Below are positions 7,253 to 11,320 of a DNA stretch of 64,000 bases, piece after piece (positions within the stretch are counted from its first letter, which is position 1; the number at the start of each line of letters is the position of its first letter). The DNA comes from Sphingomonas naphthae (GTDB lineage: Bacteria > Pseudomonadota > Alphaproteobacteria > Sphingomonadales > Sphingomonadaceae). The stretch lies in contig NZ_CP117411.1 in the NCBI RefSeq assembly GCF_028607085.1, positions 3,224,001 through 3,288,000 on the forward strand. The letters are read 5' to 3'. The notes under the pieces are model-generated. The model searched no databases. It was not told the origin of the DNA and was given only the letters and a program-made list of their open reading frames with translations. The translations under genes were made by a program, and so were the position numbers.

Positions 7253-9100
7253 TCAGGCCGCCTCCGCCGGCTCGATCTTCACCAGCACCGTCCCTTCGCT
7301 CACCTGCCCACCCTCGCCGGCGTTGAGGGTGGCGACCACGCCGTCGAAGGGGGCGAGGAGGCTGTGTTCCATCTTCATCGCTTCGAGGGTGAGGAGCTTC
7401 TGGCCCTTGGTGACCGTCTCGCCCTGCGTCACGGCGACCGCGATGATGCGGCCGGGCATGGGGGAGAGGATCGCGCCGTCGGAGGCATCCGCCTTGCCGG
7501 CCCCGCCCGCGCGCCACGGCAGGAGCTGCCACACCTGCCCGGCCTCGGCGACGATCGCGCTGGTGGCGACATTGGTGGCGTCGGAGGGCGCGACGGCCAC
7601 TGTCACCGCCTCGCCATCGAGCAGGAACCGGCCTTCGTTGCGCGGGGCCGCGTTGAGGCGGAAGCCGCCGATCCGGCCGGGGGCAGCGAGCGTGGCGGCA
7701 CCTCTGGCCAGCGCGGCGGCGGACGGCGTGGCGTCGGGCAGCAGCGCATCGCCCTCGCGCGCGATCAGGCCGGTGTCGAGCCGCGCCTCGGCGAAGGCGG
7801 GGTGGTGGAGCGCCTTTACCAGAAAGCCGGCGTTGGTCTTGAGCGGCCAGATCGCGGTCGCCTCCAAGGTCGCCGCCAGCTTGCGGCGGGCGGCATCGCG
7901 ATCCGGGCCCCAGGCGATCAGCTTGGCGATCATCGGATCGTAGAAGGGCGAGATTTCGGCGCCCTGCTCGACCCCGGTATCGGTGCGGTAGGAGGGGCCG
8001 ATGTCGAACCGCTCCAGCGTGCCGATGCTCGGCAGGAAGCCCTTGGCCGGATCCTCGGCATAGAGGCGGGTTTCCATCGCCCAGCCGGTGATCGACAGTT
8101 CGTCCTGCGCCTTGGGCAACGGTTCGCCGGAGGCGACGCGGAGTTGCCATTCGACCAGATCCTGGCCGGTGATCTCCTCGGTCACCGGATGCTCGACCTG
8201 AAGCCGCGTGTTCATCTCCATGAACCAGATGCGGTCGGCGCGCAGGCCCTCCGATCCGTCGGCGATGAATTCGATCGTGCCCGCGCCGACATAATCGACC
8301 GCCCTGGCCGCATCGACCGCCGCCCGGCACACCGCCGCGCGCGTTTCGGCGTCCATGCCGGGGGCGGGCGCTTCCTCGATCACCTTCTGGTGGCGGCGCT
8401 GGAGCGAGCAGTCGCGCTCGAACAGATGGACGACGTTGCCATGCGTGTCGCCGAACACCTGCACCTCGATATGGCGCGGGTTGGTGACCCATTTTTCCAG
8501 CAGCACCTGTTCGTTGCCGAACGACGAGGCGGCCTCGCGCTGGCAGGAGGCGAGGGCATCGAGGAAGTCGGCGGCGTCATCCACCTTCCGCATCCCCTTG
8601 CCGCCGCCGCCCGCGACCGCCTTGATGAGCACCGGATAGCCGATCGCATCCGCCTCCGCTTTCAGCCGCGCCTCGCTCTGGTCCTCGCCGAGATAGCCGG
8701 GCGTGGTGGGCACGCCGGCTTCCTGCATCAGTTTCTTGGCGGCGTCCTTCAGGCCCATGGCGGTGATCGAGGCCGGGTTGGGGCCGACCCAGATCAGCCC
8801 GGCATCCAGCACCGCTTGCGCGAAGGCGGCGTTTTCGGAGAGGAAGCCGTAACCGGGATGGATCGCCTCGGCACCGGTCGCCTTGGCCGCCGCGATGATC
8901 CGATCGCCCAGCAGATAGCTCTCGCGCACCGGCGACGGGCCGATGTGCACCGCCTCGTCGGCGGAGCGGACGTGGAGCGCTTGGGCGTCCGCATCCGAAT
9001 AGACCGCGACGGTGCGGATACCGAGCCGCCGCGCGGTGCGGATGACACGACAGGCGATCTCGCCGCGATTGGCGATGAGGAGGGAACGGATCATCGGCAT
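7253..9100 (-). CDS. mccA: 3-methylcrotonyl-CoA carboxylase, biotin-containing alpha subunit
   Basis: A protein of 615 residues carrying biotin carboxylase and biotin carrier domains, which carboxylates biotin for transfer to 3-methylcrotonyl-CoA in leucine breakdown. Visible features are the N-terminal LLIANRGEIACRV, the ATP-grasp glycine loop GGGGKGMRK, HPGYGFLSE, the active-site stretch ERDCSLQRRHQK, and C-terminal LEAMKMEH with the biotinylated Lys near 576. Co-directional mccB and ivd support methylcrotonyl-CoA over other acyl-CoAs. The start ATG at 9100 has a strong ribosome-binding site, GGAGGAG with a 7-base spacer, which is the outer edge of the hairpin repeat inserted upstream. Confidence 0.93.
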   Translation of the reverse strand: MPMIRSLLIANRGEIACRVIRTARRLGIRTVAVYSDADAQALHVRSADEAVHIGPSPVRESYLLGDRIIAAAKATGAEAIHPGYGFLSENAAFAQAVLDAGLIWVGPNPASITAMGLKDAAKKLMQEAGVPTTPGYLGEDQSEARLKAEADAIGYPVLIKAVAGGGGKGMRKVDDAADFLDALASCQREAASSFGNEQVLLEKWVTNPRHIEVQVFGDTHGNVVHLFERDCSLQRRHQKVIEEAPAPGMDAETRAAVCRAAVDAARAVDYVGAGTIEFIADGSEGLRADRIWFMEMNTRLQVEHPVTEEITGQDLVEWQLRVASGEPLPKAQDELSITGWAMETRLYAEDPAKGFLPSIGTLERFDIGPSYRTDTGVEQGAEISPFYDPMIAKLIAWGPDRDAARRKLAATLEATAIWPLKTNAGFLVKALHHPAFAEARLDTGLIAREGDALLPDATPSAAALARGAATLAAPGRIGGFRLNAAPRNEGRFLLDGEAVTVAVAPSDATNVATSAIVAEAGQVWQLLPWRAGGAGKADASDGAILSPMPGRIIAVAVTQGETVTKGQKLLTLEAMKMEHSLLAPFDGVVATLNAGEGGQVSEGTVLVKIEPAEAA

Positions 9101-9107
9101 ATCCTAA

Positions 9108-9163
9108 CTCCTCCCCGAGCTTGTCTCGGGGAGGTGGCAGTGCGAAGCACTGACGGAGGGGTC
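9108..9163. repeat. left hairpin repeat of the DUF559 cassette
   Basis: Two hairpins in tandem: CCTCCCCGAG/CTCGGGGAGG (9110-9134, 5-base loop) and CAGTGC/GCACTG (9138-9152, loop GAA), followed by ACGGAGGGGTC. The same arrangement occurs in inverted orientation on the far side of the DUF559 gene. Its outer end supplies the ribosome-binding site of mccA. Confidence 0.75.
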
Positions 9164-9190
9164 ATCGCGACGCAGTGGGGCGCGGGCGGC

Positions 9191-9607
9191 ATGATTAGGG
9201 GCACGACCACGGCTTTCCGCCGATCGCGCGAATTGCGACGCGCGATGAGCTTGCCCGAAGTGCTGTTGTGGCAGCAGCTTCGCCGGCGCGGTGCGGGCCA
9301 TAAATGGCGCAAGCAGCACGCCGCCGGACCGTACACGCTCGACTTCTACTGCGACGCGGCCAAGCTGTGCGTCGAGGTGGATGGCGAGGCGCATGGTCGC
9401 GGCGACCGGCCGGAGGCGGATGCGCGCAGGGATGCGTGGCTGGCGGCACGGGGGATCGAGACGCTCAGGGTGCCGGCGGTTGACGTCCTGGGCAATCTGG
9501 AGGGTGTCGTCACGTTTATCGCGCAAGTGGCGGGGGGGCGCAGACCCCTCCACCACCCGGCTGCGCCGGGTGGTCCCCCTCCCCGAGCAAAGCTCGGGGA
9601 GGAATGA
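9191..9607 (+). CDS. DUF559 (Vsr-like PD-(D/E)XK) endonuclease-domain protein
   Basis: A small protein of 138 residues. The DUF559 core is visible: SLPEVLLWQQLRRR, then HKWRKQHAAGPYTLDFYC and LCVEVDGEAHG, giving the D...ExD(G) acidic pattern of very-short-patch-repair-like nuclease folds. A basic, Arg-rich N-terminus precedes it. The ATG at 9191 was chosen because the family homology begins shortly after it. The last ~24 residues (from GGRRPLHHPAAPGG to the stop) are encoded by the right-hand hairpin repeat, so the gene and repeat overlap. The gene lies antisense to the mcc operon. The biochemical function of DUF559 proteins is not established. Confidence 0.85.
   Translation: MIRGTTTAFRRSRELRRAMSLPEVLLWQQLRRRGAGHKWRKQHAAGPYTLDFYCDAAKLCVEVDGEAHGRGDRPEADARRDAWLAARGIETLRVPAVDVLGNLEGVVTFIAQVAGGRRPLHHPAAPGGPPPRAKLGEE
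9543..9602. repeat. right hairpin repeat of the DUF559 cassette
   Basis: Inverted relative to the left copy: GACCCCTCCAC, then hairpin CCACCCGGC/GCCGGGTGG (9553-9573, loop TGC), then CCTCCCCGAGC/GCTCGGGGAGG (9578-9602, loop AAA). The outer stem is nearly identical to that of the left repeat; the inner stem differs in sequence but keeps its position. The repeat also encodes the C-terminus of the DUF559 protein. Confidence 0.75.
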
Positions 9608-9627
9608 GGGCAGTCTAGCCACCCCCA

Positions 9628-11229
9628 TCACATCCGGAACACGCCGAACGCCGGGCGCTCCGCAATCGGGGCGTTCAGCGTGGCGGCGAAGGCGAGGCCG
9701 AGGACGTCGCGGGTTTGGGCGGGGTCGATGATGCCGTCGTCCCACAGGTTCGCGGTGGCGTACCAGGGGTTGCCCTCTTCCTCATATTTGGCGCGCACCG
9801 GCGCCTTGAAGGCTTCGGCTTCCTCCGGGCTCCACTTGGCGGCATCGCGGTGGACGGTGGCGAGCACCGAGGCGGCCTGCTCGCCGCCCATCACGCTGAT
9901 CCGGCTGTTCGGCCAGCTGAAGAGGAAGCGGGGGCCATAAGCCCGGCCGCACATGCCGTAATTGCCCGCGCCGAAGCTGCCGCCGATCAGCACGGTGATC
10001 TTGGGCACGGTCGCGGTGGCGACGGCGGTGACGAGTTTCGCGCCATGCTTGGCGATGCCCTCCGCCTCATATTTGCCGCCGACCATGAAGCCCGAGATAT
10101 TCTGGAGGAACAGCAGGGGGATGCGCCGCTGGCACGCCAGTTCGATGAAATGCGCGCCCTTCTGCGCGCTTTCCGAAAACAGCACGCCATTGTTGGCGAG
10201 GATCGCGACCGGAATGCCCCAGATATGGGCGAAGCCGCACACCAGCGACGTGCCGTACAGCGCCTTGAACTCGTGGAATTCCGATCCGTCGACCAGCCGC
10301 GCGATCACCTCATGCACGTCATAGGGCGCGCGCACGTCCTGCGGGACGATACCGTAGAGATCGGTGGGGTCGTATTTCGGCGGGCGCGGCTCGCGCAGGT
10401 TGACATCGGGCCGCGCGTCGGGGGCGAGCGACGAAACGATGTCGCGCACGATCGTCAGCGCATGCTCGTCATTCTCGGCGACATGATCGACCACGCCGGA
10501 GCGGCGGCCGTGCGTGTCAGCGCCGCCCAGTTCCTCGGCCGAGATGATCTCGCCCGTGGCGGCCTGCACCAGCGGCGGGCCGGCGAGGAAGATCGTGCCC
10601 TGGTTGCGGACGATGACGCTCTCGTCCGACATGGCGGGCACATAGGCGCCGCCGGCGGTGCAACTGCCCATCACGCAGGCGATCTGCGGGATGCCGCGCG
10701 CCGACATATTGGCCTGGTTGAAGAAGATGCGGCCGAAATGCTCGCGATCGGGAAAAACCTCGGCCTGGTTGGGCAGGTTCGCGCCGCCGCTGTCGACGAG
10801 GTAGATGCACGGCAGGCGGTTCTCCGCCGCGATCTCCTGCGCGCGCAGATGCTTCTTCACCGTCATCGGGAAATAAGTGCCGCCCTTCACGGTCGCGTCG
10901 TTGGAGGCGATCATGCAGGTGCGGCCGGAAACCTGGCCGATGCCGGCGATGATGCCGGCGCCGGGCACCTCGTCGCCATACATTCCATTGGCGGCGAGCT
11001 GGCCGACCTCGAGGAAGGACGAGCCCGGATCGAGCAGCCGCTCCACCCGATCGCGCGGCAGCAGCTTGCCGCGCGAGACATGGCGCTCGCGCGACGCCTC
11101 GGTGCCGCCCAGCGCCGCTTTCGCGACATCGGCGCGCAGCCGCTCGGCCAATGCGCGATTGTGCGCCGCATTGGCGCGGAAGCCGGCATCGTCGGCGGAG
11201 ACGAGGGTGGGGAGGACGGGGGCGCTCAT
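9628..11229 (-). CDS. mccB: 3-methylcrotonyl-CoA carboxylase, carboxyltransferase beta subunit
   Basis: About 533 residues, the usual length for this subunit. It transfers the carboxyl group from biotin to 3-methylcrotonyl-CoA. Typical carboxyltransferase stretches are present: [54 protein letters not shown] and [15 protein letters not shown]. The ATG at 11229 (MSAPVLPTL) was chosen over upstream in-frame starts because it gives the family length. It is followed after 20 bases by the inserted DUF559 cassette and then by mccA, so both subunits should still be co-transcribed if the hairpins do not block transcription. Confidence 0.93.
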
Positions 11230-11320
11230 GCGATCGGGCTTATCCACGGGCTCGAGGGGCGACAACATGCGGCGCGATCCGGCCCGCCACGCGCGGGCTT
11301 TCATCGCACCGGGGGTATTT

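Follow-up and report, generated by a model that had tools for sequence, protein, structure and literature searches.

Introduction

Bacterial chromosomes commonly carry REPs; those for which a mover has been proposed are, to our knowledge, the ones linked to RAYTs. In the REPtron and REPIN–RAYT systems, as described in excerpts of two reports, a gene stands between inverted palindromes, copies are dispersed and inverted doublets constitute a mini-form; the RAYT enzyme and its palindrome co-evolve, and the enzyme gene is mostly vertically inherited (PMC3116915; PMC8266576). A second class, the CGTC REPs, comprises alphaproteobacterial palindromes that occur mostly as inverted dimers and were reported, in the excerpt available, without a dedicated transposase (PMC3733652). 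On the enzyme side, the DUF559 family has been assigned to the EDxHD homing family (excerpt of PMC9403480). The Caulobacter DUF559 protein VsrA has been tied to a solitary cytosine methyltransferase, with a proposed role in mismatch repair, and is needed for the DNA damage response seen without the cytosine methyltransferase; a word search of the accessible text of that report returned no instance of 'palindrom' (PMC12907096). Among the open-licence PMC papers searched, partly available as excerpts, we found none that connects DUF559 or GIY-YIG genes with REP-like repeats.

Here, we analysed a DUF559 gene of Sphingomonas naphthae that is bordered by inverted two-hairpin repeats; together they resemble a type of mobile DNA that has attracted little notice and that would depend on a homing-type nuclease. 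The unit shares the plan of a REPtron, in that inverted palindromes border a gene and recur elsewhere in the genome, both dispersed and as doublets. It differs in encoding a nuclease of the PD-(D/E)XK/EDxHD type and no HUH Y1 transposase, in that no GTAG tag was seen, and in the architecture of its repeat, which combines two hairpins with a G-rich tail pointing inward. In operation it would be like a REPtron, without being one. With the homing endonuclease I-Bth0305I the enzyme shares its predicted fold and the conserved acidic and His positions; I-Bth0305I, however, carries a long DNA-binding extension (excerpt of PMC3943268), whereas the present enzyme is a single small domain whose gene is palindrome-bordered and is present in multiple copies at separate sites. 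Nothing around the window gene suggests an intron or intein. Vsr likewise has the same predicted fold, and VsrA is itself a DUF559 protein, but the role proposed for VsrA in the excerpted report is mismatch repair (PMC12907096).

The locus and its repeats

The whole stretch of DNA analysed, 64 kb in length, is referred to below as the window. The features discussed are as follows.

7253–9100, minus strand: mccA homologue (biotin carboxylase subunit), the downstream host gene
9110–9134, plus strand: left repeat, outer hairpin CCTCCCCGAG-cttgt-CTCGGGGAGG
9138–9152, plus strand: left repeat, inner hairpin CAGTGC-gaa-GCACTG, the TGGC..GACGG variant
9155–9163, plus strand: left repeat, inward-facing G-rich tail GGAGGGGTC
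9191–9607, plus strand: gene for a DUF559 (PF04480) nuclease, predicted EDxHD/Vsr-like, 138 amino acids
9543–9551, minus strand: right repeat, inward-facing tail GGAGGGGTC, within the open reading frame
9552–9574, minus strand: right repeat, inner hairpin ACCACCCGGC-gca-GCCGGGTGGT, within the open reading frame
9578–9602, minus strand: right repeat, outer hairpin CCTCCCCGAGC-ttt-GCTCGGGGAGG, within the open reading frame
9628–11304, minus strand: mccB homologue (carboxyl transferase subunit), the upstream host gene

The mcc names were read from the sequence and are backed by the annotation of a homologous locus (L333). In relatives with an empty junction the mccB stop codon lies at most 20 nt from the mccA start; here the gap is occupied by the DUF559 gene, and the positions and strands of the open reading frames bear out the first-pass annotation, which had placed this gene inside an mcc operon and antisense to mccB and mccA. 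A consensus scan detected no promoters or terminators in 9000–9750, and the only Rfam match in 9000–9700 was a sub-threshold one to a mycobacterial sRNA (18 bits versus a gathering score of 37).

The right repeat is the mirror image of the left. Each window-type unit reads TCCTCCCC-x-GGGGAGG, a second hairpin and GGAGGGG, with the heads outward and the G-rich tail toward the gene. That both ends consist of a stem, a second stem inward of it and a G-rich tail or its complement had been claimed at the outset, and is confirmed by the coordinates and by DNA folding: the left unit folds at −19.0 kcal/mol (z = −4.6) and the right at −27.2 kcal/mol (z = −6.1), and 0 of 200 shuffles were equally stable. 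The outer stem pattern has two matches in the 64-kb window, both at this locus, versus a mean of 0.00 in 100 shuffles; the tail motif GGNGGAGGGG alone is not significant in the window (three matches versus a shuffle mean of 1.26). Variants of the inner hairpin similar to the left one occur around the DUF559 loci L089, L093 and L100 and on one side of L103. By reading, no GTAG tag is present in 9103–9165 or 9540–9610, and the YGTC/CGTC tag is absent from the window repeats.

The gene had been described as lying inside the inverted repeats. The enclosure stands, with one correction: the open reading frame does not end before the right repeat but runs through it to a stop codon at 9605–9607, beyond the outer hairpin, so the nuclease has a C-terminal tail that is translated from the right repeat. 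A repeat-type C-terminal tail (PLH or PPP motif) is present in 40 of the 65 genes of the window's clade.

The nuclease

The window protein belongs to PF04480 (77.6 bits versus a cut-off of 20.6), and residues E23, D51, E62, D64, H68 and D77 are invariant in an alignment of 20 sequences. A profile search matched 3hrl (1e-33) and 3r3p (1.3e-5), the latter being the catalytic domain of I-Bth0305I according to the Foldseek listing. The AlphaFold model (mean pLDDT 77.9) matched 3hrl with a Z score of 15.2, I-Bth0305I with 12.4 over 96 residues and Vsr with 11.0. As modelled, the window enzyme is EDxHD/Vsr-like in its predicted fold and its conserved acidic and His positions, and is predicted to be closest to the homing endonuclease I-Bth0305I and to Vsr. 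The dN/dS ratio was 0.04–0.28 in 12 of 12 gene pairs tested, which means that DUF559 genes remain under purifying selection.

The window protein has no match to Y1_Tnp among Pfam families up to an E value of 1. Pfam assigns no transposase or recombinase family to the only gene of the unit, which is therefore not classed as an insertion sequence. Phage records gave no match at 1e-5. Two other assignments were considered and set aside: in a defence library, residues 19–114 match a stretch of 91 positions in the DpdF model, which has 1078 (6e-8), and the match to NCBIfam PRK09767 falls under the cut-off of that model.

Enclosure of DUF559 genes by matched repeats

PF04480 was found in 129 of the 149 genomes of the window's family, with 332 matches in total and up to ten per genome. 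From the higher-scoring part of these, 162 family loci were read, a few of them possibly BLAST-only matches. Each locus was given an enclosure score, defined as the highest-scoring inverted match between its two 350-bp flanks, which were set by the domain boundaries; the threshold was 35. Matched inverted flanks with a score of at least 35 were present in 139 of the 162 loci (57 of 65 in the window's clade and 82 of 97 in the other clade) and reached at least 40 in 127; 23 loci scored below 35. The expectation that DUF559 genes are flanked by the repeat is thus largely upheld in the family, and the opposite outcome, in which they would mostly lack it, was not seen. At the same threshold the controls gave 0 of 30 UPF0102 genes (best score 29) and, after a shift of 900 bp within the family loci, 0 of 199 positions; the top score in 20 shuffles of each of 102 loci was 34.

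The 4.3-Mb genome of S. naphthae itself contains three PF04480 matches, all of which are enclosed. Besides the window gene, L001 is enclosed by CCCTCTCCCC..GGGGAGAGGG plus TTGGGAGAGGGG, and L002 by a two-hairpin repeat resembling that of the window. The genes on either side of L002 were read from the sequence as transhydrogenase subunit genes, and a Sphingomonas parapaucimobilis plasmid also has a DUF559 gene at this place. There are 15 plasmid records with a DUF559 relative; among the three examined, two sphingomonad loci are enclosed and one of Azospirillum is not, and two flank searches found no closely related records that differ by the presence of the DUF559 gene. In IMG/VR, five of five hand-picked DUF559 loci are enclosed. 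Loci L436, L437, L440, L442 and L443 are DUF559 genes with clusters of hairpin repeats on short IMG/VR contigs, representing viral or host-flank DNA.

Outside the family the association is weaker. PF04480 was present in 112 of 299 sampled genomes of the phylum, a set that includes family members, and 10 of the 28 top-scoring loci from outside the family reach a score of 35. The Azospirillum brasilense DUF559 gene has no flanking repeat pair at the locus examined, and its region is kept in seven records covering at least 80% of it, a retention that fits vertical inheritance as judged from the sequence records. A study of Legionella evolution, accessible in excerpt, lists among its mutational hotspots transposase and DUF559 segments and GIY-YIG homing endonuclease genes (PMC12308824).

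Repeat type follows the nuclease tree

The quick tree used here comprises 159 DUF559 proteins, one of them (row L188) on a very long branch. A single branch of this tree, with 98% SH-aLRT support, splits most genes with CCTCCCC-type repeats from genes with CCCTCTCCC/CCTTCTCCC-type repeats. For the 109 genes typed in both flanks, the split in repeat type amounts to one change on the tree. When one-sided labels are included, the window-type label requires eight changes, at least six of them forced by starred branches, versus a shuffled mean of 50, and six rows with this label sit in the other clade. The inner hairpin shows compensatory changes: 69 of 71 units retain four of four core pairs with 12 different stems, versus a mean of 17 of 71 when the halves are re-dealt.

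Filled and empty mcc junctions

A first set comprised 90 mccA loci, one per genome and including that of the window; mccB adjoins mccA in 55. Of these junctions, 20 have a gap of at most 20 nt, six a gap of 21–150 nt, 13 hold DUF559 and 16 hold other inserts. DUF559 occurs there in both orientations, eight versus five, the window's gene being among the five; one of the 13 (L188) is a mere 277-nt gap and looks decayed. Six of the 16 other inserts (L147, L151, L154, L162, L163 and L166) are bounded by GTCA(C/T)-CTGAACTTGTTT(C/T)AG-like palindromes, and a GIY-YIG match lies at the junctions of L154 and L166. A second set of 80 named MccB loci has mccA downstream in 53, with 16 gaps of at most 20 nt, six short gaps, 28 other arrangements and three DUF559-filled junctions (Sphingomonas sp. 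Leaf33, Sphingopyxis microcysteis and Sphingomonas sp. Leaf343). The proposal that mccB–mccA would be uninterrupted in relatives accordingly holds for 20 of 55 and 16 of 53 junctions, and the junction seems, from these sequence comparisons, to be a recurrent landing place. In Sphingomonas zeae (L367) an apparent lone and degenerate window-type repeat lies in a 72-nt mcc gap with no gene, and is perhaps a remnant.

The empty junction of Sphingopyxis bauzanensis and the filled one of S. microcysteis are identical at 530 of 599 aligned flank positions (88%). The S. microcysteis locus (L376) and locus L161 of genome G037 have identical junctions and are possibly from one genome. Placing the mcc location of 18 rows on the protein tree requires 11 changes, at least four of them forced by well supported branches (shuffled mean 17), which indicates that this location was gained or lost more than once and is somewhat clustered on the tree.

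Copies of the whole unit

One genome (G040) contains three copies of the whole unit at different sites (L094, L335 and L336). Their identities are 97.9% over 516 bp, 91.6% over 510 bp and, in the third pairing, 85.8% over 683 bp. The first two matches begin and end about 20–40 bp beyond the outer hairpins; the third extends further on one side. No target-site duplication was noticed by eye in the aligned copies and the filled and empty pairs, the sites being much diverged. These three loci and L096 have common outer flanks with GGGTGG..GCGGACA, perhaps another dispersed repeat as the insertion site.

Dispersed and gene-less repeats

A genome-wide search, as the first-pass annotation had recommended, showed the repeat to be dispersed: the second hairpin of the window type has 70 matches in the S. 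naphthae genome, and the backward-read pattern none. Four further outer-stem loci in this genome comprise three inverted short-linker pairs without a gene (L005, L008 and L009) and a lone stem (L004). Across the family, 70 of 149 genomes contain the window-type pattern, with up to 123 matches, and the backward control has none in any genome. Forty dispersed window-type loci from six genomes, chosen from listed places of which some were listed as pairs, included 15 strict tail-inward pairs with linkers of 20–90 bp and none of the opposite layout; six of the 40 lack a strict unit.

The abundance of the repeat is associated with the gene. With window-like DUF559 defined by a score of at least 95 bits, at least ten window-type matches were found in 28 of 51 genomes with such a gene versus 9 of 98 without (p = 2e-9), and each of the 20 genomes without any DUF559 has at most two. 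Exceptions exist in both directions: four or more matches occur in 16 of the 98 genomes that lack a window-like gene (G009 has 113, G115 54, G071 31 and G010 30), and four of the 51 with one have zero (G002, G022, G063 and G129). For the second-type pattern, genomes with a strong PF04480 match were positive in 42 of 58 cases, those with a weaker match in 12 of 71 and those with none in 0 of 20; the control gave a single match (in G130). Since the copies that flank DUF559 genes are included in both repeat counts, thresholds of one match and the second-type correlation are partly trivial; ten window-type matches are not.

GIY-YIG genes and CGTC repeats

GIY-YIG is another class that includes homing nucleases. 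Among single-domain GIY-YIG genes of the family (L262–L291), 21 of the 30 top loci reach an enclosure score of 35, with other palindromes. CGTC-tagged repeats with a CC tail lie on both sides of 5 of 29 such genes and on at least one side of 11 of 29; at UPF0102 loci a CGTC-tagged repeat was found in 1 of 30, on one side. A CGTC-tagged hairpin with a CC tail was found at 0 of 134 family and 0 of 28 outside DUF559 loci. The window-type repeats share with the CGTC REPs their alphaproteobacterial host and the mostly inverted-dimer arrangement but lack the YGTC tag that is given for that class, along with an 8–9 bp stem and a CCA tail, in the excerpted report (PMC3733652); CGTC-tagged repeats instead flank some GIY-YIG genes. 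This offers a lead: the GIY-YIG genes are candidates for the missing partner of the CGTC REPs.

Discussion

The first reading of this locus had envisaged a self-contained element that pairs a nuclease-fold protein with its own REP-like repeats, on the plan of REP and RAYT but with an unrelated protein. Enclosure, empty sites, copies of the unit, agreement between tree and repeat type and gene-less pairs all support it. We hold with moderate confidence that the hairpins–DUF559–hairpins unit is one copy of a small mobile element, REP/REPIN-like in organization, in which an EDxHD homing-type nuclease takes the place of the HUH transposase. In such an element the structured palindromic ends would evolve together with the enzyme. 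The nuclease would recognize palindromes of its own type, probably folded into a hairpin that is extruded or single-stranded, and would nick or cut at the repeat or at the target; host repair or replication would then copy the palindrome-bounded segment into intergenic gaps. The gene-less inverted pairs would be a non-autonomous mini-form moved in trans. That the DUF559 enzyme mobilizes the repeats, that it is the cutter, what it cuts and where copying ends are the parts of this scheme that we infer.

The strongest alternative is that the repeats are older and were moved by something else, and that DUF559 is a homing endonuclease that cleaves gene-less pairs in their linker, its gene then being copied into the cut pair. 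The gene-less pairs are indeed laid out as the unit would be without its gene, a homing endonuclease is the closest enzyme with a known function, DUF559 has been placed in the EDxHD homing family (excerpt of PMC9403480), and some repeat-rich genomes lack the matching gene. The single change that reconciles repeat type with nuclease clade where both flanks are typed would, however, be unexpected under free homing into any pair. The three whole-unit copies carry some outer flank with them to different sites of one genome, and repeats are scarce in the genomes devoid of DUF559. The filled and empty Sphingopyxis junctions also point to joint arrival of hairpins and gene; at their level of flank identity they do not represent a single observed insertion step. 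We consider homing into pre-existing pairs rather unlikely.

Less probable still is a host repair enzyme, a Vsr-like mismatch endonuclease whose neighbouring hairpins would be regulatory, termination structures or insertion-tolerant spacers. The link of Caulobacter VsrA to a solitary cytosine methyltransferase in the excerpted text (PMC12907096), the fold match to Vsr, purifying selection and the long retention in Azospirillum are in line with such a role. It accords poorly with the region having no terminator-like site, with the unenclosed UPF0102 genes, with the patchy presence at the mcc junction in both orientations and the multiple PF04480 matches per genome, and with the agreement between repeat and nuclease clades.

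A passenger role, in which DUF559 would be cargo and a RAYT or some other transposase would move the repeats, appears very improbable. Y1_Tnp is enriched in repeat-rich genomes: at least ten window-type matches occur in 14 of 26 genomes with Y1_Tnp versus 23 of 123 without, and any second-type match in 18 of 26 versus 36 of 123. Among genomes with window-like DUF559 the median number of matches is 34 with Y1_Tnp versus 7.5 in the 38 without (p = 0.09; p = 0.014 in the other genomes). Y1_Tnp is nevertheless found in just 26 of 149 genomes, S. naphthae having one weak match, and the 38 genomes that lack it still have repeats; the two Y1_Tnp loci long enough to test have none of the three repeat types, and the window repeats have no GTAG tag. 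An artefact of chance or composition in G+C-rich genomes with common G-rich palindromes has a negligible probability, for although crossed flanks from different loci reach a score of 40 in 258 of 2000 pairs, because repeats are common in these genomes, the median is 64 for true pairs versus 23 for crossed pairs, and the slid, unrelated-gene and backward-pattern controls (the last in all 149 genomes) are zero.

The reading as a nuclease-run mobile element may extend beyond DUF559. As a tentative generalization, which we put forward with less confidence than the element itself, small homing-type nucleases may be the missing partners of whole classes of palindromic repeats, DUF559 for the G-rich untagged REPs and single-domain GIY-YIG for the CGTC REPs, in a transposase-free REP/REPIN world that would operate through hairpin nicking and host copying. 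The GIY-YIG link provides a direct test for the published question of what spreads the CGTC repeats. If a homing-type nuclease can mobilize palindrome-bounded DNA, REP/REPIN-like systems would have originated on more than one occasion around unrelated enzymes, and a large protein family of unknown function would gain a role.
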